From Clostridia bacterium (GTDB taxonomy: Bacteria; Bacillota; Clostridia; Oscillospirales; SIG627), in contig JAFUKG010000030.1 of NCBI GenBank assembly GCA_017467865.1, forward strand, positions 1 through 64,000: 64,000 bases of DNA, given 5' to 3'. Position numbers and translations under genes: made by a program. Positions 29,005-50,280 of the stretch are shown piece after piece. The first letter of the stretch is position 1; every line of letters starts with the position of its first letter. The notes beneath the pieces are model-generated. The model did no database searches. It was not told where the DNA came from and worked only from the letters and a program-made list of their open reading frames with translations.

Positions 29005-32000
29005 ATGGCAAATAACAAAATTATGCGTTTTGTTGTGACCGCAGTAGTTCTCGTGGCTCTCATGACCCTTACTGCATTTGCTGCCGATATCACGGGCGGC
29101 TTCGGTGCAATAGGCGGAGTTGACGATACTTACTATGCCGCTCCCGCAACACTCAACGCAGCAGGTAACGGACTCGATCTTGGTGAAGCTATTCAGCTCA
29201 CAACAGCAAATAACACAGGTCTGGCAGGTCTTTACGCCGTGTCAACAGACAGCACCTTCGCAGGCGATTACGAAATCGTTTATGTGTATGGTGCAATGGC
29301 TGACAGAAAAGACTTTCTTGAAAGAAATACTTGGACAACATCAGGTAATAAAACCGGTAAGGACGCGGATGCAAACGGTTTTGACGATACCTATACAAGC
29401 AACGCAATTAAAACCGTAGGCACTAAAACATACGTAGTTGGTACGGATGAAGATGGCGACGGCTTTGATGATAACAACCCAACAATAAGAGTTGTTTGGT
29501 CTGCAAATAACGGCGACGGCTTTTATTACCTTGCAAATTATCAGGGACTTCGTATGGATGCGAAGAACTCTACCACTTATAGCTTTGCACCCGGATATAT
29601 CACAGGTAAGGGCGTAAATGCAAGTTTCTGGGGCACTTGGGGAACCTACTACACCGGTGTAACCGGATCGTGGACAAACTCCCGTAACATTTCTACTGCT
29701 TTGCTTTCGGGCTTCAAAAACGCAACAGATGATACTAAGGAAGCGGCTTTTGATGCAATCGTAGAATATGTAGATGAGTTTAATTATTCCTACGCACTTA
29801 CAGAGAAAGAAATAATTCCTGTTTCCGAAGTAAATTCATATACTTATAAGCTTGTAGTATTCAAGGATGATAACGGTTTTACAAACTCTGACCATGAAGT
29901 AAAGTTTGAAGCGTATGTTGCTGATAAAGAAGGAAAGATAACTGTTTATACTTACGTTCACAGTGCTATTGAACTTAGCAAAACAGCGTCAACGCTTGTA
30001 GTGGATTTTGGCGAGGGAACCAACGGTAAATGGGAAAACAATAAAGTACCCACAGAAGGTTATTTTGTAGGCTTTAAAATTTGGCCCTTCTATGGTCTTA
30101 CCGATTATACTAAGTTTACAGTTCCTACCGCTGCAGCGACTAACGTAGGACACGTTCACGTTGTTAACGGTTACTCCATTGATACCCCCAAGGCATCTAA
30201 GCCCACAGGTCTTGGAATAGGTGCAAACGGTGCTATTACAGGTACTATTGCAGGTATGACATATGAGTATGCAGCAGTTTCTTCTGCAGATATGCTTAAT
30301 GGTACGGCACTCACTTATACAACAGTAGATGACACTACTGCTCTTACAGACGCAGGTCTTTATGCAGTAAGAGTTGTGGGTGTTGACGGTGAGTATGATG
30401 CTTCTGATTTTGCTATACTTTATATAGCAGGTACAACTGAGCAGAAGGTTACTCTTCCTAATAAAAATGAAGATGATAGAGCAGTTTTCTCTGCAACTTC
30501 TTCTTGGGTTGACGGTACGATGACCGAGGGAAACAACAGTGCGATGTTTGGAAGTCCTTACCAGGTATTCCAGGGTAGCTATGATACAGGCTTCACAACC
30601 TCAAATTATTATCTTACTTCTCATAAGCACATTGATGCAAGTTACGTAACAGCTGTTGAAAACGCAACAGAGGAAACAAAGGCTGATGCTCTTGAGAATA
30701 TAGCTAAATTGGCTAAGGCTATCAGCTACAAGTACGCCTACGACCCCGAAGAGATCATCGAGGTTAAAGAGTTCTCAAGCTTGTCTTACAAGCTCTTTAT
30801 AAGACAGGGTTACAGATACGTTCTTCCCGACAGAACAAAGTCCGAGGTTCGTCTCTACGTAATGGACGAGGCAGGAACAGTAAAACCTTACTCTGCTAAG
30901 CCTACCGTTGACATTGCTAAGCTTTATACTTGGATGGGTTACTCTATCCCTGTTTCTGCTACAGATTTTGTAAACCTTCCCACAACAGGCTACGTAATCG
31001 GATTTGAGATTATTCCTTACGCAGAGTTTGATGCTCAGGCGGCAACAATCAATACAGAGGAAGACAACAATAACATTTGTTATGGTTTCTGTATGGATTA
31101 TGACAACGACATGTATTCAATTAAAACTGCTCAGACAACACCCGTGCTTGCGGTTGAAACGGGTGCCAACAAGACACTTGCAGAGCTTACAATAAGTAAC
31201 TTTGTAACAGGCACAACCTACGCTTATTCTACAGATGAGGGTGCAACTTGGACAGAGTTTACAACTGCTACTCTGAAGTTTACAGAGGCGAATAAATATT
31301 ACTGGGTTAAGGCTCTTGGAGATGCTACTCACTTTGACAGTGAAATAGCAGTTCCCACATATCCTTCTGCAGCAGTTATATACAAGGGTGCAAGCCTTGT
31401 TCTTGACGGACAAATAGGTATCAGAATTTATTTTGACGTAGATAAGGCAGCTCTCGGCTACACAATGATTAAGCACACGATTGCTAACGGTGTTGATTCT
31501 GTTGAGTATGCCAAGGACATAAAGGCTGTAAACTATGAGGCAGACGGAAGAACTGCTTATGTTACCGCTTACGTCGCTCCTAAGGATTTCGACAATGCAA
31601 CAATTACTGTAAATCAGTTGCTTGTTAATAACTCCATTGTAGGCATATCAGGCTCAATAATTAATTCTATACCCGTTCACACAGTTTCTGACTACATCAC
31701 AGTATTCTACAAGCAGGTAGAGGCAGGCAATGAAGAGTGCATTGCCGCAAATGACCTTGTATTGGCTCTTGAAGCTTACTGTAAGAACGCTGACGCTTAC
31801 TTCAACACAGATGCAGAGGCTCTTGATACAGTTGCAGCAGATACAACCGCTATCAGCACGATTGCAGATCCCACTAAGGCAGGTAAGTTTACTTACAACG
31901 GCAATACAATTCTTGAGCATTACTCAACGTCTCTTATCCTTGAAGAAAACGTTACTATAAGACATTACTTCAAGGCAACTGCAGTCACAGGACAGCCTAC

Positions 32001-32307
32001 CTTTACCACAGAAACTGTTACTGCAACAGAAGCGAGCGGTAAGGCAGTAGCATTTAATCCTGAGAATTATTTAGCTTCTGCTGTTGACGGTCAGGGATAT
32101 TACTACGTTGATATAACAGGTATCGACGCTAAGAACCTTGACACCCAGTACGAGCTTACTTTGACTCTTGGTGAAGAGTCAATCGTAGTTAAGTACTCAG
32201 CACTTAACTACGTAAAACAGGCTTACAGCGATGCAGATGATAAGCTTGCAAATCTTGTAAAGGCTATTTACAACTATTCGGTAGAAGCAGAAGAATACGC
32301 TAACTAA
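29005..32307 (+). CDS. Large secreted surface protein with repeated domains
   Basis: 1100 residues. Signal peptide at 1-26 (RFVVTAVVLVALMTLTAFA then ADI). Two Asp-rich loops, DADANGFDD and DEDGDGFDD (~115-155), resemble calcium-binding thrombospondin-type or EF-like loops. Two long related segments, ~245-390 and ~555-710, share a layout (ATDDTKEAAFD / ATEETKADALE, then YSYALTEKEII / YKYAYDPEEII), so they are an internal duplication. The last ~300 residues (VLDGQIGIRIYFDVDK ... LAKAIYNYS-like ending) match a C-terminal domain common in Clostridia surface proteins. No catalytic motif or wall anchor is evident. A 40-residue peptide gene follows 20 bp downstream. Confidence 0.85.
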   Translation: MANNKIMRFVVTAVVLVALMTLTAFAADITGGFGAIGGVDDTYYAAPATLNAAGNGLDLGEAIQLTTANNTGLAGLYAVSTDSTFAGDYEIVYVYGAMADRKDFLERNTWTTSGNKTGKDADANGFDDTYTSNAIKTVGTKTYVVGTDEDGDGFDDNNPTIRVVWSANNGDGFYYLANYQGLRMDAKNSTTYSFAPGYITGKGVNASFWGTWGTYYTGVTGSWTNSRNISTALLSGFKNATDDTKEAAFDAIVEYVDEFNYSYALTEKEIIPVSEVNSYTYKLVVFKDDNGFTNSDHEVKFEAYVADKEGKITVYTYVHSAIELSKTASTLVVDFGEGTNGKWENNKVPTEGYFVGFKIWPFYGLTDYTKFTVPTAAATNVGHVHVVNGYSIDTPKASKPTGLGIGANGAITGTIAGMTYEYAAVSSADMLNGTALTYTTVDDTTALTDAGLYAVRVVGVDGEYDASDFAILYIAGTTEQKVTLPNKNEDDRAVFSATSSWVDGTMTEGNNSAMFGSPYQVFQGSYDTGFTTSNYYLTSHKHIDASYVTAVENATEETKADALENIAKLAKAISYKYAYDPEEIIEVKEFSSLSYKLFIRQGYRYVLPDRTKSEVRLYVMDEAGTVKPYSAKPTVDIAKLYTWMGYSIPVSATDFVNLPTTGYVIGFEIIPYAEFDAQAATINTEEDNNNICYGFCMDYDNDMYSIKTAQTTPVLAVETGANKTLAELTISNFVTGTTYAYSTDEGATWTEFTTATLKFTEANKYYWVKALGDATHFDSEIAVPTYPSAAVIYKGASLVLDGQIGIRIYFDVDKAALGYTMIKHTIANGVDSVEYAKDIKAVNYEADGRTAYVTAYVAPKDFDNATITVNQLLVNNSIVGISGSIINSIPVHTVSDYITVFYKQVEAGNEECIAANDLVLALEAYCKNADAYFNTDAEALDTVAADTTAISTIADPTKAGKFTYNGNTILEHYSTSLILEENVTIRHYFKATAVTGQPTFTTETVTATEASGKAVAFNPENYLASAVDGQGYYYVDITGIDAKNLDTQYELTLTLGEESIVVKYSALNYVKQAYSDADDKLANLVKAIYNYSVEAEEYAN

Positions 32308-32327
32308 TTTAAGGAGGATGAGATATA

Positions 32328-32450
32328 ATGGTTAAAGAGATATACGAATCCCCCGAAATGGAAGCAGTACTTTTTGATAGCGATGACATTGTAACAGTAA
32401 GCTTTACTGACAATGACGATGATGCACTTCCCCCTGCAATTTGGGGATAA
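32328..32450 (+). CDS. Short acidic peptide with YExPEME motif, copy 1
   Basis: 40 codons plus stop, with AAGGAGG (32311-32317) ten bases before the ATG and an intrinsic terminator right after the stop, so it is clearly built as a gene. The N-terminal half (MVKEIYESPEMEAVLFDSDD) then IVTVSFTDND... and the end ALPPAIWG. A second peptide at 50125 shares YExPEME, F.xDDIVTxSF.D and a terminal IW, while the spacing near the C-terminus differs. No signal peptide, no Cys. It follows a secreted-protein gene in both cases. The pattern (conserved N-terminus, variable C-terminus) recalls ribosomal peptide precursors, but no modifying enzyme is nearby. Function unknown. Confidence 0.82.
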   Translation: MVKEIYESPEMEAVLFDSDDIVTVSFTDNDDDALPPAIWG

Positions 32451-32451
32451 T

Positions 32452-32481
32452 AAAAAAGCCTCCCTAAAGGGAGGCTTTTTT
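32452..32481 (+). terminator. Terminator of the surface protein-peptide operon
   Basis: AAAAAAGCCTCCCT (32452-32465) with AGGGAGGCTTTTTT (32468-32481), beginning two bases after the peptide stop. Confidence 0.9.
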
Positions 32482-32634
32482 AATGCAGAATGATGAATGC
32501 AGAATGATGAATTGTGGAAGATTTCGCTTGTGCGAAATCTTCCTTAACTTTCACCCATAGGTGAAAATATAACTTGCTACGGGCAAATATAACTTCCTAA
32601 GGAAATATAACTTGTGCAAAGCACAAATATAATT
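32482..32634. repeat. Element with lead sequence and tandem covarying hairpins
   Basis: A lead of GCAGAATGATGAAT units (32483-32515), a 12-bp perfect hairpin GGAAGATTTCGC-TTGT-GCGAAATCTTCC (32516-32543), then four ~20-bp units framed by AACTT ... AAATAT: TTTCACC/GGTGAAA, TTGC/GCAA, TTCCT/AGGAA, TTGTGC/GCACAA. The frame is constant while the arms change in step. No gene. Confidence 0.75.
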
Positions 32635-32636
32635 TT

Positions 32637-32661
32637 AAAAATGGGCTTTTCAGCCCATTTT
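32637..32661 (-). terminator. Terminator of polC
   Basis: AAAATGGGCT (32637-32646) with AGCCCATTTT (32652-32661), abutting the polC stop codon; minus-strand T-run beyond. Confidence 0.85.
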
Positions 32662-44099: not shown

Positions 44100-45743
44100 A
44101 TGAGAAAATTATGTAATTTAACAGCAATTCTGTTTGCTATGATGTTTTGTGTTTTTCTTGCATTGACAGCTTTTGCAGACAGTACACCGCTGTTAAAGAT
44201 GAGCGGAGTTTCGGTAAAGGTTCCCGACGTCACGGGAAAAAGCGGAATACGCTTTAAGATAACGGTTGACAAAACCGCTCTCACAGATGTGGAAATCGTA
44301 GAAGAAGGCGCAATTCTTATAGCGCTTGAAGCCTTGGAGGATAAGCCTTTTACTCTTGATACAATGGGCGTACAGAAGATAGGTGCTGGGAATGAGTATT
44401 ACAGCGAAACGGAGAGCTGTTATGAGTACATAGCATTAATGAATCATGTTCCCGTATATAAATTCAAGACTCCCATATGTGCAAGAGGCTATATAAGATA
44501 TAGCACAAACAGAGGGGAGATAAAAACCGTTTACTCCAATACTGTTACCGAAACTATATATTCAATTGCAGGAAAAGTTCTTTTGAGCGGAGAGGAAAAA
44601 GAAGAAACGAAAATGGCAGTTAAAACCTTTATCACAGATGCATATGACAGCTATATGACAAGAGAAGAAAATAACCCCGAGAAACTTCTCACTATTACCT
44701 CCCCCAAGGCGGGTGAGACAGTCTACCCTTATATCTACCACGCAAAGAAGTACTTAGAGCACCTTGAAGAGGGTAAGGACAAGGGCGTGCTTTACTATCT
44801 TCAGATGGCGGGCTACCCCAAGCACTACTACGAGGGAATAGAAGTGAAATGGGAAAACGGATACGAAAACACCGTTTCTTACACGGTGACGTACGCCACA
44901 AAGCCCGACTTTTCGGACGCTTTGAGTGTTAATACCGCCGACACCTCGGTATCTCTCTACAATCTTTATAAAGCGACGGATTATTACGTGAAGGTCACCG
45001 CAAACCTTTCCGACGGCACATCCTTCACTGCCCTTTCGAGCTTTAAGACCACAGAACTGGGACCCCGCACCATAAGGCTTGACGGAGCGTACAACGTCCG
45101 TGACATCGGCGGTTATATGACACCGAACGGCAGGACAATGCAAGGGCTTATCTACCGAGGAGGTCAGCTTAACGGAACTTACAATAACGGAACGGTGTAT
45201 AACATCGAGCTTACAGAGTCGGGTAAATATGTGGCAGAAAAGTTACTTAAAATAAAGACCGATATGGACCATCGCTCAAAGAGTGAGAACAGCGTGGGGG
45301 GGATTACCGAAAGCCCCATACCCGGTGCCGAGCTTAAGTTTATTCCTACAGGGGCTTATAATATTTCGGGAAATCCCGAGAATTACAGAAAGGTATTTTC
45401 TGCCCTTGCTGATATTAATAACTATCCCATATACTTCCATTGTCAGGGGGGTGCCGACAGAACGGGCACTGTCGCATATCTACTGAACGCTCTTCTCGGG
45501 GTCGGCGAAACAGACCTGAGAAGGGATTATGAGTTTACATCTTTCTCCCTTTACGGTTGGCGTGCCATTGACTCTCAGAGCTATATCGCAAAGGAAGATT
45601 ATCATTTCTTTGACACCCTCAATTCTCAAAAGGGCGACACTCTCGCCGAAAAAACAGAAAATTGGCTCCTTTCTATCGGTGTTACCGAAGAGGAAATTAA
45701 AAATATCAAGTCTATAATGCTTACCGGTAAGGAAGCAGAGTAA
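44100..45743 (+). CDS. Secreted tyrosine phosphatase with FN3 domain
   Basis: 547 residues. Signal peptide ~1-24 (LTAILFAMMFCVFLALTAFA). N-terminal domain ~28-170 (KSGIRFKITVDK ... VPVYKFKTPICARGYIRY) is common in clostridial surface proteins; a fibronectin-III-like domain lies at ~240-320 (IEVKWENGYENTVSYTVTYA); the phosphatase domain is ~320-545, with NVRDIGGY, YRGGQLNG and the loop HCQGGADRTGT (Cys ~448), a perfect CX5R of the Y_phosphatase3 type. It removes phosphate from proteins or lipids/sugars outside the cell. AAGGAG precedes the ATG. Its paralogue begins 24 bp downstream. Confidence 0.9.
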   Translation: MRKLCNLTAILFAMMFCVFLALTAFADSTPLLKMSGVSVKVPDVTGKSGIRFKITVDKTALTDVEIVEEGAILIALEALEDKPFTLDTMGVQKIGAGNEYYSETESCYEYIALMNHVPVYKFKTPICARGYIRYSTNRGEIKTVYSNTVTETIYSIAGKVLLSGEEKEETKMAVKTFITDAYDSYMTREENNPEKLLTITSPKAGETVYPYIYHAKKYLEHLEEGKDKGVLYYLQMAGYPKHYYEGIEVKWENGYENTVSYTVTYATKPDFSDALSVNTADTSVSLYNLYKATDYYVKVTANLSDGTSFTALSSFKTTELGPRTIRLDGAYNVRDIGGYMTPNGRTMQGLIYRGGQLNGTYNNGTVYNIELTESGKYVAEKLLKIKTDMDHRSKSENSVGGITESPIPGAELKFIPTGAYNISGNPENYRKVFSALADINNYPIYFHCQGGADRTGTVAYLLNALLGVGETDLRRDYEFTSFSLYGWRAIDSQSYIAKEDYHFFDTLNSQKGDTLAEKTENWLLSIGVTEEEIKNIKSIMLTGKEAE

Positions 45744-45767
45744 ATAAATATTATTAAGGAGAACACA

Positions 45768-48700
45768 ATGAAAAGAACAAGAATTTCAGTACTTTTGGTT
45801 TTGGCTTTTATTCTCTCTCTTTTCTTTACATTCTCGGCAATCGCTGACAGTGCACCCAGTATCACGTCAAGCGGTGTTTCGCTGAGAATACCGGAAGAGG
45901 GAATAAAGGGCGGACTCCGATTTAAGATGACGGTTGAAAAGCCTCTTCCCGAGGGGGTTGAGATAACGGAACAGGGAACTATAATCGCTCCCCTCTACGT
46001 TATCGGAAATCAGTCGGGCTCAGGCAAAACAGCATGGAAAGCTGACCTTACTCTTGACAGCGAAAAAATACTTAAAGTAGTTAAGACAGAAAACAGATAT
46101 TACGAATATGAAAACTCATTTTATTCGTATACCGCAGTTCTGACCGACATACCTGTCTTTAACTATAAAACACCTATGGTTGCAAGAGGATATGTTACAT
46201 ACACCGTTGACGGCGCAGACGCCCGGACAGTTTACAGCGATGCCATAATATACGATGTTTATTCATTGGCGAAAAAGGTCAATACATCTGCTGTTGAAGA
46301 ATATATCACCGACTTTGACGCTTATTTATCAAAGGAAGACGACGCCGACTCACTCATTACTATCACCGCTCCCGCCGAAAACGAAGTGGTTTATCCCTAT
46401 ATCAGCGCTGCAAAGAATTATCTCGAATTTCTTGAAAACTACACAGGTGACGCCGAGACAGGTAAGGAAGTGGGAGACCTTGATTCAAGCGGTACTGCAC
46501 ACTATTATCTTGTACAGTCAAATTGGTCAAGGCAGTTTTATAAGGCTATTGATATTAAGTGGACAAGCTCTTACGAAAACGTGCGTTCCTTTACTGTGGT
46601 ATACGCTACAAAGCCAGACTTCTCGGATGCTAAATATGCATATGCCGAGGCAGGAGCAACATCGGTATCCCTTTATAATTTATTTAAAGGCACTACCTAC
46701 TACGTAAAGGTTATTGCCAATATTACTGACGGCACGTCACACTCTGCAATCTCCACATTTAAGACAACAGACCTCGGTCCCCGCCCCATAAAGATTGACG
46801 GCGGTTATAACGGACGTGATATCGGCGGTTATGAGACCCCCGAAGGAACAACACTTCAGGGGCTTATCTACCGAGGCGGTCAGCTCAACGGAACCTATAA
46901 TTACGGCTCAACCACAATTAACGTAGATATCACCGACTATGGCAAGTATACCGCAAAAAATGAGCTTGGTATCAAGCTCGACATCGACCTTCGTTCCGAG
47001 ACCGAGGATAGTGTCATGGGCATTACCGAAAGCCCCATACCAGGTGCAAGGCTTGAATTTATGCCAACAGGAGCTTACTCGCTCCCCACAGCCTCTGAAA
47101 GCTATAAAAAGATTTTTAAGGCGTTTTCAAATATAAATAACTACCCCATCTATTTCCACTGTCAGGGCGGTGCCGACAGAACAGGTACTCTTGCCTATCT
47201 TTTGAACGCACTTTTAGGTGTTGATGAGATGGATTTGAGAAGAGATTATGAATTTACTACATTTTCTCTCTATGGCTGGCGTGCGATAGACCATACAAGC
47301 TATTTTGCAAAGAAAGACAACGCCCTTCTTACCGCCCTTAATTCTTATGAAGGCGATACCCTTTCAGCGAAAGTGGAAACCTGGCTTACTACAAAGATTG
47401 GCATAACGGACGAAGAAATTGCAAATATCAAATCTATTATGCTGACAGGCGCACCCAAGACCGAAAACGTTACCTTCCCCACAGAGGTGAAATACTCAGA
47501 GGTTTATTCTCTTGATATTATTTCAACAAAGCTTTTGTCGGAACTGAGAGCAGTTTACGTAGGCGGTAAAGAAGTGCCTTACGAAATCAGCGGGGGCACA
47601 GTTTCTGTTGCTATCAAGGACTTCCCCGAGAGTGTCATAGACGGCGAGGTTACAGCAAAGCTCGTCTTTGAAGATGAGGAATTTGAGGGCACCTTCACCT
47701 ATGACTCCACAAGAACCATTACCGCCCCCGAGCTTGTTTCAGCCGCTTTTGACAGTGAAGTTAAGGTGACAGTAAATGCAGTTGTAAGCGACGTTACCGC
47801 TCTTTATTTCAATGACATAAAGGTGGACTTCACTTCAGGAGATACCTACGTTACAGTAACAAGTATCCCCGCAAGCCTTGCTTCGGGAACAGTAACAGTC
47901 AAAGCAGTGCTTCAGGATGGCACAGAGCTTACAGACACCTTCACCTATGACTCCACAAGAACCATTACCGCCCCCGAGCTTGTTTCAGCCGCTTTTGACA
48001 GTGAAGTTAAGGTGACGGTAAATGCAGTTGTAAGCGACGTTACCGCTCTTTATTTCAATGACATAAAGGTGGACTTCACTTCAGGCGATACCTACGTTAC
48101 AGTAACAAGTATCCCCGCAAGCCTTGCTTCGGGAACAGTAACAGTCAAAGCAGTGCTTCAGGATGGCACAGAGCTTACAGACACCTTCATTTATGACAGC
48201 AGTACAGAGGTAACCGACGTTGCAGATTATCTCAATTATAATGGTGAGACGACAATAACTCTTGACGCAGATAATACTAAGGTTTCCTCATCTGCTATCG
48301 GCTACGGCAAATGGGTTAAGATTCACATGGAAGCGGTTAACGCTACTAACGGCGACATCAGAGTGGCATATGGAAGCTACGGCACAATACTCAGAAGCAA
48401 CGAAACACGTTATGCAAGACTTTCGGCAAGCGGAACTTCAATCGGCGAATATAAGCGAAACTTAGGTCATTCGCAAATTCAGAAGAGCGACTTTGACACA
48501 GGCGACCCCTATGACTATTACATCAGAGTTGACCTTGCAAGCAGTACAGAAGCGCTTGTTTCTACCAAGAAGATAAACCGCACTACAAGCACTGTTGCAG
48601 GACAGCATTCCTATGTAATTACAAGGCTTACATCAGATGAAATAACAAGTGAAAATGCGGGAATTACGTTCCAAATAGGCAACGTATCCACAGACGGAAC

Positions 48701-49496
48701 GTCATCTCTTACTATCTACGGCGGAAAGGCAGTGCCCGCAAGCGCAACCTTCCCCGCAACACTCTCACAGAGCCTTGACAAGTCTCTTGAAATTACAGCC
48801 ACAGGTGAAGTTACAGCAGTTTATCTCGGCGACACCTCTGTTCCATTTACTGCAACCGACACAGGTGTCAGCGTTGCCCTGTCGGATATTCCCGAAAGCC
48901 TTGCATCGGGTACTGTTGCAGGTAAGGTAGTATTCGAGAGCGGAGAAGAAATTGAGGGAACCTTTGAATATGACGCAACTCCTCTCGTTATGATAGCAGA
49001 TATCCTCGACTTCGGTGACAGCGATACCATTACACTTAATGCTACATTAGGAAACACCGTTCAGTCCACACAGTCCGTCGGTTACGGTAAGTGGATAAGA
49101 ATGCATATGGTTGCAGTTAATGGCAGCAGCGGTGATATAAAAGTGTTTGTAGGCAGCTATGGTGTACAGCTTAGGGGAGGAGCTACACGTTATTATACAC
49201 TAAATACAAGCGGTACTGCTTCCGAAAAAGCAAGACCCAGCGGTCAAACAGGAATATCTCAAGGACATTATGTTGCAAGTCAACCTTGGTATTTTGATAT
49301 TAAAGTAGACCTTATTAACGATACTCAGGCTACTGTAACCGTAAGAAGAGTTGTGCGTGAAACTCTTGGGTTGGTAGCCGAACAGTCATATACTGTTACA
49401 AGACTTACGTCGGGAGAATATGGTGAGCCCAACGCACCCCTTACGATAAAAATAGGTACAAGCGATACCACAAGCCTTGTACTCTATAAGGATTAA
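45768..49496 (+). CDS. Very long secreted tyrosine phosphatase paralogue with tandem repeats
   Basis: 1242 residues. Signal peptide ~1-27 (LVLAFILSLFFTFSAIA). Same order as its neighbour: N-terminal domain, FN3-like domain (~250-340), phosphatase (~345-560) with HCQGGADRTGT (Cys ~464). Then unique extensions: two 82-residue repeats (~641-804) whose DNA is nearly identical, and two larger related modules (~820-985 and ~1080-1240), each with YGKW(V/I)(K/R)(I/M)HM and GDI(R/K)V.xGSYG. These may bind wall or glycans. It is cotranscribed with the 44100 gene (24 bp gap) and an SLH protein gene (3 bp gap), so the products probably act together at the cell surface. Confidence 0.9.
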   Translation: MKRTRISVLLVLAFILSLFFTFSAIADSAPSITSSGVSLRIPEEGIKGGLRFKMTVEKPLPEGVEITEQGTIIAPLYVIGNQSGSGKTAWKADLTLDSEKILKVVKTENRYYEYENSFYSYTAVLTDIPVFNYKTPMVARGYVTYTVDGADARTVYSDAIIYDVYSLAKKVNTSAVEEYITDFDAYLSKEDDADSLITITAPAENEVVYPYISAAKNYLEFLENYTGDAETGKEVGDLDSSGTAHYYLVQSNWSRQFYKAIDIKWTSSYENVRSFTVVYATKPDFSDAKYAYAEAGATSVSLYNLFKGTTYYVKVIANITDGTSHSAISTFKTTDLGPRPIKIDGGYNGRDIGGYETPEGTTLQGLIYRGGQLNGTYNYGSTTINVDITDYGKYTAKNELGIKLDIDLRSETEDSVMGITESPIPGARLEFMPTGAYSLPTASESYKKIFKAFSNINNYPIYFHCQGGADRTGTLAYLLNALLGVDEMDLRRDYEFTTFSLYGWRAIDHTSYFAKKDNALLTALNSYEGDTLSAKVETWLTTKIGITDEEIANIKSIMLTGAPKTENVTFPTEVKYSEVYSLDIISTKLLSELRAVYVGGKEVPYEISGGTVSVAIKDFPESVIDGEVTAKLVFEDEEFEGTFTYDSTRTITAPELVSAAFDSEVKVTVNAVVSDVTALYFNDIKVDFTSGDTYVTVTSIPASLASGTVTVKAVLQDGTELTDTFTYDSTRTITAPELVSAAFDSEVKVTVNAVVSDVTALYFNDIKVDFTSGDTYVTVTSIPASLASGTVTVKAVLQDGTELTDTFIYDSSTEVTDVADYLNYNGETTITLDADNTKVSSSAIGYGKWVKIHMEAVNATNGDIRVAYGSYGTILRSNETRYARLSASGTSIGEYKRNLGHSQIQKSDFDTGDPYDYYIRVDLASSTEALVSTKKINRTTSTVAGQHSYVITRLTSDEITSENAGITFQIGNVSTDGTSSLTIYGGKAVPASATFPATLSQSLDKSLEITATGEVTAVYLGDTSVPFTATDTGVSVALSDIPESLASGTVAGKVVFESGEEIEGTFEYDATPLVMIADILDFGDSDTITLNATLGNTVQSTQSVGYGKWIRMHMVAVNGSSGDIKVFVGSYGVQLRGGATRYYTLNTSGTASEKARPSGQTGISQGHYVASQPWYFDIKVDLINDTQATVTVRRVVRETLGLVAEQSYTVTRLTSGEYGEPNAPLTIKIGTSDTTSLVLYKD
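47691..48182 (+). repeat. 246-bp tandem direct repeat, two copies
   Basis: Copies at 47691-47936 and 47937-48182 differ, as far as I can see, at only two bases (GTGACA/GTGACG and GGAGAT/GGCGAT). The period is 82 codons, so the frame is kept. This is a recent duplication within the long phosphatase gene. Confidence 0.92.
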
Positions 49497-49499
49497 ACT

Positions 49500-50114
49500 A
49501 TGAAGAAGCTTTTAGCATTAATAATCACAGCAATTTTGCTCAGTCCTACGGTTCTGGCGGGATTTATTGATATGCCCGACAACTGGTCGACAGCCGCACT
49601 TCAGAGTGCGGCTGACAGAGGGCTTATGAACGGGTCAAACGGATATATCTACCCCGATAAAAGCCTTACACGTGCCGAGCTTGCCACAATTCTCAACAGA
49701 GCACTTGGCAACACCGCTGAGGGCGATATTTCCCATTTCTCTGACGTAAATGAGGGAGATTGGTTTTATCACGAAATGGCAAAGGCATATAAGGCGGGGC
49801 TTTTCCTTGGTGATGGTAAAAGCCTCAACCCGAGCAAAGCTATAACAAGAGAAGAGGCAATGACAGTTATGGCAAGGGCATATTCTCTGTCCTCGAAAAC
49901 AGACGCCCTGTCAGCCTTCAAGGATAAAGACGACGTTTCTTCATGGGCAAAGGAGTCTGTCAACGCTTTGGTATCGGCGGGCATTATAAATGGCTCAAAC
50001 GGCAGACTTAACCCTAAAAATACAATTACAAGAGCCGAGTTTGCTCAGGTGTTGTATAATCTTGATAAGATAATTTCTGATGACGAGGGCAACTGGTCGG
50101 AGTGGTATGAATAA
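49500..50114 (+). CDS. Secreted protein of three SLH domains
   Basis: 204 residues. Signal peptide ~1-20 (LLALIITAILLSPTVLA), then three S-layer-homology repeats at ~22-75, ~80-135 and ~138-190, each with a WxxxAlxxaxxxGlxxG core and an (I/L)TR(A/E)E segment (LTRAELATIL, ITREEAMTVM, ITRAEFAQVL). SLH triplets bind pyruvylated wall polymers and hold proteins or whole layers on the surface. It has no other domain, so it may be an anchoring partner for the preceding secreted phosphatases, whose genes run into it. It is followed 10 bp later by a short peptide gene. Confidence 0.93.
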   Translation: MKKLLALIITAILLSPTVLAGFIDMPDNWSTAALQSAADRGLMNGSNGYIYPDKSLTRAELATILNRALGNTAEGDISHFSDVNEGDWFYHEMAKAYKAGLFLGDGKSLNPSKAITREEAMTVMARAYSLSSKTDALSAFKDKDDVSSWAKESVNALVSAGIINGSNGRLNPKNTITRAEFAQVLYNLDKIISDDEGNWSEWYE

Positions 50115-50124
50115 GGAGAAAGCT

Positions 50125-50241
50125 ATGGAAACAAAAGAAAACTACGAAGTCCCCGAAATGGAAATAACCATTTTCGAGGGAGATGATATTGTCACAACAA
50201 GCTTTGGCGATGACGAGGCTGTGTGGTTGAATATTTGGTAA
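50125..50241 (+). CDS. Short acidic peptide with YExPEME motif, copy 2
   Basis: 38 codons plus stop, with AAGGAGA before the ATG and a strong terminator directly behind. Sequence: METKENYEVPEMEITIFEGD followed by DIVTTSFGDDEAVWLNIW. Aligned with the 32328 peptide, YE.PEME, F..DDIVT.SF.D and a terminal IW are shared, while residues ~28-36 differ. No Cys, no signal peptide, strongly acidic. It closes an operon of secreted phosphatases and an SLH protein; the other copy closes the operon of a secreted protein. That repeated context argues for a role at or toward the cell surface; the actual role is unknown. Confidence 0.82.
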   Translation: METKENYEVPEMEITIFEGDDIVTTSFGDDEAVWLNIW

Positions 50242-50244
50242 TAG

Positions 50245-50280
50245 AAAAAAGGAACAGACAGCGTCTGTTCCTTTTTCTAT
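50245..50280. terminator. Bidirectional terminator between peptide gene and ClC gene
   Basis: AGGAACAGAC (50250-50259) pairs with GTCTGTTCCT (50263-50272), extended by A- and T-rich arms; the ClC stop (50277-50279) lies in the outer arm. Confidence 0.88.

Follow-up and report, generated by a model that had tools for sequence, protein, structure and literature searches.

The gene considered here lies within a 64,000-nt stretch of DNA (the window) that is part of contig C27 in a draft genome (G000; 1.59 Mb, 81.6% complete). As read from the sequence, copy 1 begins with an ATG at 32328, runs for 40 codons, and stops at 32448-32450; its signals and neighbors, and those of a second copy, are collected in Table 1. 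Folding places a 14-pair hairpin with a U-rich 3′ arm directly after the stop codon (-21.4 kcal/mol, z -5.9); a pattern-based terminator scan made no call for this hairpin, though folding is strong there. The exact coordinates and the hairpin confirm the original prediction of a 40-codon gene with AAGGAGG, ATG, stop, and immediate terminator. Beyond the hairpin, positions 32483-32640 hold intergenic repeats, consisting of atgcagaatgatgaat units and palindromic atataactt units, which recur elsewhere in G000 and near genes in relatives. Copy 2 closes a single same-strand run (44100-50241) comprising two tyrosine-phosphatase-like proteins, an SLH protein, and the peptide gene itself; the C-terminus of the SLH protein, SDDEGNWSEWYE, resembles the copy 2 core GDDEAVWLNIW.

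Table 1. Features of the two peptide loci in the window
Feature	Position	Strand	Basis
Secreted protein, 1100 residues, directly upstream of copy 1	29005..32307	+	signal peptide; no Pfam match
C-terminal domain (CTD, residues 1030-1100) of the 1100-residue protein	32092..32304	+	common to large proteins adjoining peptide genes
Ribosome-binding site AAGGAGG, 10 nt 5′ of copy 1 ATG	32311..32317	+	read directly
Peptide copy 1, MVKEIYESPEMEAVLFDSDDIVTVSFTDNDDDALPPAIWG, probable LPP-type precursor	32328..32450	+	ORF call, genome search, alignment, codon analysis
Putative leader M1-T23 of copy 1	32328..32396	+	predicted from alignments and LPP model of PMC13381572
Putative core V24-G40 of copy 1	32397..32447	+	predicted from alignments and LPP model
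Intrinsic terminator after copy 1	32451..32482	+	folding
Two Y_phosphatase3-domain proteins upstream of copy 2	44100-45743, 45768-49496	+	domain search
SLH-domain protein, 204 residues, directly upstream of copy 2	49500..50114	+	domain search
Peptide copy 2, METKENYEVPEMEITIFEGDDIVTTSFGDDEAVWLNIW	50125..50241	+	ORF call, genome search
Terminator-like hairpin 3′ of copy 2	50246..50276	+	folding/terminator scan

A single-sequence search of G000 with copy 1 recovered copy 2 at E 1e-6 together with eight more places (ten hits), and the similarity to the gene at 50125, on which the original prediction had relied, is not due to chance. Contig C29 accounts for two pairs of hits that are inverted duplicates, located at its ends, which leaves eight distinct copies; its two ends (about 27 kb) seem to repeat each other in inverted orientation, probably through misassembly. 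Residues K3, Y6, P9, E12, F16, D20, T23, S25, and W39 (copy 1 numbering) are invariant in 8/8 copies. Codon changes among four close paralogues are mostly synonymous and in the third position, with dN/dS of about 0.03-0.13, so the peptide frame is under coding constraint, and by every test applied the gene at 32328-32450 is a conserved coding gene. A family profile built from the eight copies found convincing relatives in 4/6 genomes of the genus, 10/22 of the family, and 59/297 of the order; named relatives (12 loci, consensus query) come from metagenome-assembled Clostridia, including Oscillospiraceae, Ruminococcus, Lachnospiraceae, and Desulfitobacteriaceae, several of them from ruminant gut. 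The original prediction had asked for a homologue search in relatives and for a test of coding conservation, and had named failure of either as its refutation; since relatives were found and the frame is constrained, neither ground for refutation arose.

Seventy distinct peptide sequences were collected, with a mean net charge of -7, a strict YxxP in 58/70, and a Trp among the last six residues in 38/70. Alignments across copies bear out the proposed division into a conserved N-terminal leader half and a variable C-terminal core half, and the family and its cassette-linked relatives (see below) share the leader pattern Y..P.[IML]E...F...DI[IV]T.S. The peptides searched had no above-cut-off family match in Pfam, NCBIfam, or PHROGs. 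A match to the H-type small acid-soluble spore protein (NCBIfam E 0.12, 12.5 bits against a cut-off of 47.9) was dismissed as chance, and a phage origin was rejected on the lack of any PHROGs match.

The leader recalls that of the linear polyphosphorylated peptides (LPPs), a RiPP class described in May 2026 (Popov et al. 2026, Nat Commun, PMC13381572). Published LPP gene sets consist of a kinase (LppK), a recognition protein (LppB), a SipW-like peptidase (LppS), an exporter (LppD), and an NTP transferase (LppN); the clusters sit in capsule loci and contain one to three precursors, each with a YxxP leader and a variable C-terminus, which acquire multiple phosphates on core Ser3 and are cut after Thr-1 (PMC13381572). 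The YxxPx[hydrophobic] pattern expected of an LPP precursor is present as Y6/P9/M11 in copy 1, where it forms the recognition-type motif YESPEM, and as Y7/P10/M12 in copy 2. By analogy, T23 of copy 1 is proposed to be position -1 and Ser25 is a candidate phospho-acceptor; the putative core has an acidic stretch followed by a C-terminal IWG. The original prediction had held the absence of Cys against a leader/core peptide, an objection that falls away since LPP modification needs no Cys. The full published leader consensus, YxxPxVLxHQxIxFETxxS (PMC13381572), is absent from the peptides, whose agreement with it is confined to Y, P, the hydrophobic position, and Thr/Ser: VLxHQ is missing, the Thr-Ser spacing is one shorter, and Ser is at core position 2 as compared with 3 in published LPPs. 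We therefore keep to the term LPP-type, denoting a divergent branch and not membership in the published precursor group. Searched against the PDB, the peptide profile recovered no LppA leader.

In relatives (8-20 kb contexts), the leader adjoins genes for an HprK-like kinase, a PqqD protein, and a SipW-like peptidase, often with an ABC (MsbA-like) exporter and NTP_transf_5. The cassette at L096 has two tandem peptides, an HprK-like kinase, a radical SAM protein, PqqD, a SipW-like peptidase, an ABC exporter, and NTP_transf_5; sets that are similar, not identical, occur at L106, L109, L115, L120, L121, L127, L130, L131, and L161, and a PqqD search without the peptide in the query also reached a peptide gene (L110). 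Cassette and peptides co-occur: the kinase is found in 55/59 peptide-positive and 44/238 peptide-negative genomes (Fisher 1.5e-27), and a strong PqqD in 54/59 and 49/238, respectively, both comparisons being uncorrected for relatedness. The cassette PqqD profile matches solved structures of LppB (9x8z, E 2e-6) and lasso B1. Residues N33 and D70 make LppB Tyr-selective (PMC13381572); the equivalent Asn is present in 14/14 cassette recognition proteins and the equivalent Asp in 11/14, positions at which the paeninodin recognition protein has Gly and Gln. Judged by these residues, the relatives' cassette recognition proteins (RREs) are of the Tyr-selective type, not the paeninodin type. The cassette peptidase retains GxSMxPLL, an HR pair, and GD; archaeal-type signal peptidase I and SipW are among its top NCBIfam matches, below cut-off.

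In G002, of the same genus, the cassette lies on contig C19, apart from the three peptides (on C25, C26, and C8); kinase, RRE, and SipW/archaeal-type peptidase are present in most peptide-bearing relatives, G002 among them. The original remark that no modifying enzyme lies nearby is thus correct for the window but not for most peptide-bearing genomes as a whole, where kinase, recognition protein, and peptidase are encoded elsewhere. G001 has peptides and the kinase, and gave no PqqD match; in G000 (81.6% complete) neither an HprK-like kinase nor a cassette-type PqqD was matched; in a genome this incomplete a cassette may have escaped detection, and one is predicted for this organism too. Two candidates were rejected as proof of one in G000: a PF14907 match, which is weak evidence because it lies in a polysaccharide locus, as PF14907 does elsewhere in the genus, and a PqqD at G000:C29:3726 that represents another subtype, adjoins a transporter gene, and is not recovered with the cassette profile.

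Wzz, CpsB/CapC, and glycosyltransferase genes recur near relatives' cassettes, and a link to surface polysaccharides is common to the published LPPs and the peptides described here. At L106, L130, and L131, LPP-type leaders precede Cys-containing cores (GGC.TWSNQ.GV.C.YGLT) and adjoin a radical SAM/SPASM protein in addition to kinase, PqqD, and SipW-like peptidase; these loci appear to be hybrids between LPP clusters and those for radical-SAM peptides. Found repeatedly next to the kinase gene (L083, L096, L109, L122, L129, and L135) is a small secreted protein or lipoprotein that has a linker of low complexity and a short, distinctive tail at its C-terminus; it may be another component of the cassette. 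In G001, an HprK-like kinase gene (L150, G001:C45, 8177-8824) lies within a run of secreted-protein genes that includes a peptide gene, with PqqD and peptidase not nearby.

Kinase or PqqD genes lie within 4 kb of 20/70 peptides and not of the other 50/70, orphan status being dependent on contig ends. The upstream same-strand neighbor is a predicted secreted protein in 30/46 testable orphan copies against a background of 15.7% (p 5e-14; p 1e-11 without G000; signal peptides called by a simple hydrophobicity rule), substantiating the placement behind surface-protein genes noted in the original prediction. The spacing is typically 4-40 nt, and the secreted neighbors are varied, with cohesin, Ig-like, LRR, SLH, subtilase, and metallophosphatase domains. 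Three peptides of the same genus (L024, L076, and L089), whose cores have a common ELP.-like motif, instead follow genes for what we take to be cytoplasmic enzymes of uronate metabolism or catabolism.

A domain of about 75 residues related to the CTD, usually at the very end of the protein, is found in most large peptide-adjoining proteins of the genus and in several outside it; it is present in the four peptide-bearing genus genomes and absent from the two without peptides. AlphaFold2, run on the secreted protein's C-terminal domain with four sequences, reached pLDDT 47, too low for a fold search. Among 25 genus proteins ending in the domain (a count leaving out a G002:C8 protein in which it is internal), 8 are followed by a peptide gene, 9 carry their own acidic tail (about 20 residues) with Trp at or near its end, 8 have neither (7 of these from G001), and none has both; the chance of zero overlap between tail and peptide is 0.012, or 0.026 with near-identical copies merged, relatedness being otherwise uncorrected. 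Just as genes that occur both fused and split tend to indicate a joint function, the either/or pattern here suggests replacement of a protein's own tail by the core.

Tails and cores also resemble each other in sequence: G002 peptides end in VEDEDETGILPW and a G002 protein in LDEDESEIIPW. An exact DNA-pattern search of the six genus genomes for [DE][DE]x[DE]xxIxxW-stop returned six matches, namely two peptides and four domain-protein tails (two of the four being near-identical copies), and with one mismatch allowed there were 12 matches against 4 for a reversed control; as the pattern was designed after some tails had been seen, what carries weight is the lack of any other exact match in about 11 Mb. 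Outside the genus, peptide and secreted protein at the same locus share a core ending at L129 (EGDNGTGWG), L096 (IELPII), and L075; a scan for core/tail likeness found 4/70 peptides at E<0.05 where 3.5 were expected, so that support comes from the quality of these three cases and not from the count. At L027/L091 (G001:C23), a peptide-family sequence is in frame at the end of a 348-residue secreted SLH-type ORF, possibly a natural fusion.

We consider it likely that the gene encodes an LPP-type (RiPP) precursor matured in trans. According to this scheme, i) the peptide would be transcribed together with the upstream secreted protein; ii) the leader half YESPEM...F...DIVT would be captured in trans by a PqqD-type recognition protein; iii) the HprK-like kinase would phosphorylate the serine after the leader, Ser25 in T-x-S; iv) a SipW/archaeal-type signal-peptidase-like enzyme would cut at or next to the conserved Thr (after T23 by LPP analogy); v) an MsbA-like exporter would carry out the acidic core ending in IWG; and vi) once outside, the core would work at the cell surface alongside the secreted protein of the adjoining gene, a partnership proposed because sister proteins that lack a following peptide bear the same acidic, Trp-ending tail. 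It is conceivable, if rather doubtful, that the pathway supplies the surface protein's C-terminal tail in trans, so that a RiPP-type pathway would decorate, anchor, or regulate adjoining Sec-exported proteins.

A lasso precursor, with its leader bound by lasso B1 and cut by B2 and its core cyclised by the C protein, is suggested by the likeness of the YxxPx[hydrophobic]E...F...T leader to those of rumen Ruminococcus lasso peptides (MTYNKPSFEKISSFKESTM; PMC7533575) and by the lasso B1-like recognition protein; however, no B2 (PF13471) was matched in G000, G001, or G002, and elsewhere the matches are weak and mostly to long generic proteins unlinked to peptides, the SipW-like peptidase occupies the place of B2, and no cyclase is among the 25 families listed as common to cassette neighbors, so that this reading is largely refuted and keeps almost no credence. 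Paeninodin-like lasso peptides do share an HprK-like kinase, an NTP transferase, a discrete B1-type recognition protein, and a [Y/W]xxP leader with the peptides described here, but differ in the B2 peptidase and cyclase, which are absent here, and in the recognition protein, which here is of the Tyr type (Asn/Asp kept).

The gene might alternatively encode an unmodified small protein that serves the upstream secreted protein in the cytoplasm as chaperone or regulator, or couples its expression. This would fit the position of most copies, outside cassettes and closely behind a secreted-protein gene, probably on the same transcript, and the failure to find a cassette in G000. Against this, peptide-bearing genomes across the order tend also to have the kinase and recognition protein, the identical leader type occurs within cassettes, and a chaperone for secreted proteins makes no sense for the L024, L076, and L089 peptides behind cytoplasmic enzyme genes; we regard it as unlikely. 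An aromatic C-terminus is reminiscent of some linear signalling peptides, and the peptides are short and multi-copy, yet a signalling peptide (for quorum sensing or otherwise) outside any RiPP pathway is very improbable given that a hydrophobic secretion segment is absent, no receptor or regulator is among the recurrent neighbors, and large surface proteins themselves carry such tails at their C-termini. The signalling or surface-linked role first proposed therefore divides: signalling is unsupported by any result here, and a surface-linked role gains from the tails common to secreted proteins.

We return to maturation in trans of an LPP-type precursor, for which the closest comparison is with the LPPs themselves. 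Likenesses extend to the N-terminal YxxPx[hydrophobic] leader, the conserved Thr then Ser at the leader/core border, and the variable C-terminus; to HprK-like kinase, discrete recognition protein (Tyr-selective in relatives), archaeal/SipW-type peptidase, MsbA-like exporter, and NTP transferase; and to the lack of a cyclase and the polysaccharide genes nearby. Unlike LPP precursors, most peptides here are encoded at a distance from the cassette and behind secreted-protein genes, with as many as eight in one genome, and have short, acidic cores that often end near Trp and resemble the C-terminal tails of secreted proteins; some clusters here also add a radical SAM enzyme. The SynChlorMet cassette (NCBIfam ScmC/D/E) shows distant similarity to the kinase, PqqD, and one radical SAM protein, with every score far below family cut-offs. 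Many prochlorosin precursors lie apart from the gene for their enzyme, ProcM. The prochlorosins (PMC10783134) are alike in having one promiscuous maturation enzyme for many precursors, and unlike in lanthipeptide chemistry, in leader family and hosts, and in having no known link to secreted-protein genes.

The family, originally described as new-looking, is not wholly new in kind, as relatives sit in LPP-type cassettes. New with respect to the main text of PMC13381572, which mentions neither Clostridia nor orphan or distant precursors, is the position of most precursors, away from the cassette and, as a rule, 4-40 nt after the gene for a large secreted protein that often has the shared C-terminal domain; the supplementary data of that paper may already list some of them.

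We wish to stress that precursors encoded away from their enzymes, and short enough to escape annotation, would mostly be missed here by cluster-based RiPP mining. LPPs were described in 2026 without a known biological role, and a large gut and rumen Clostridia branch linked to secreted proteins provides the class with a concrete, testable partner hypothesis.
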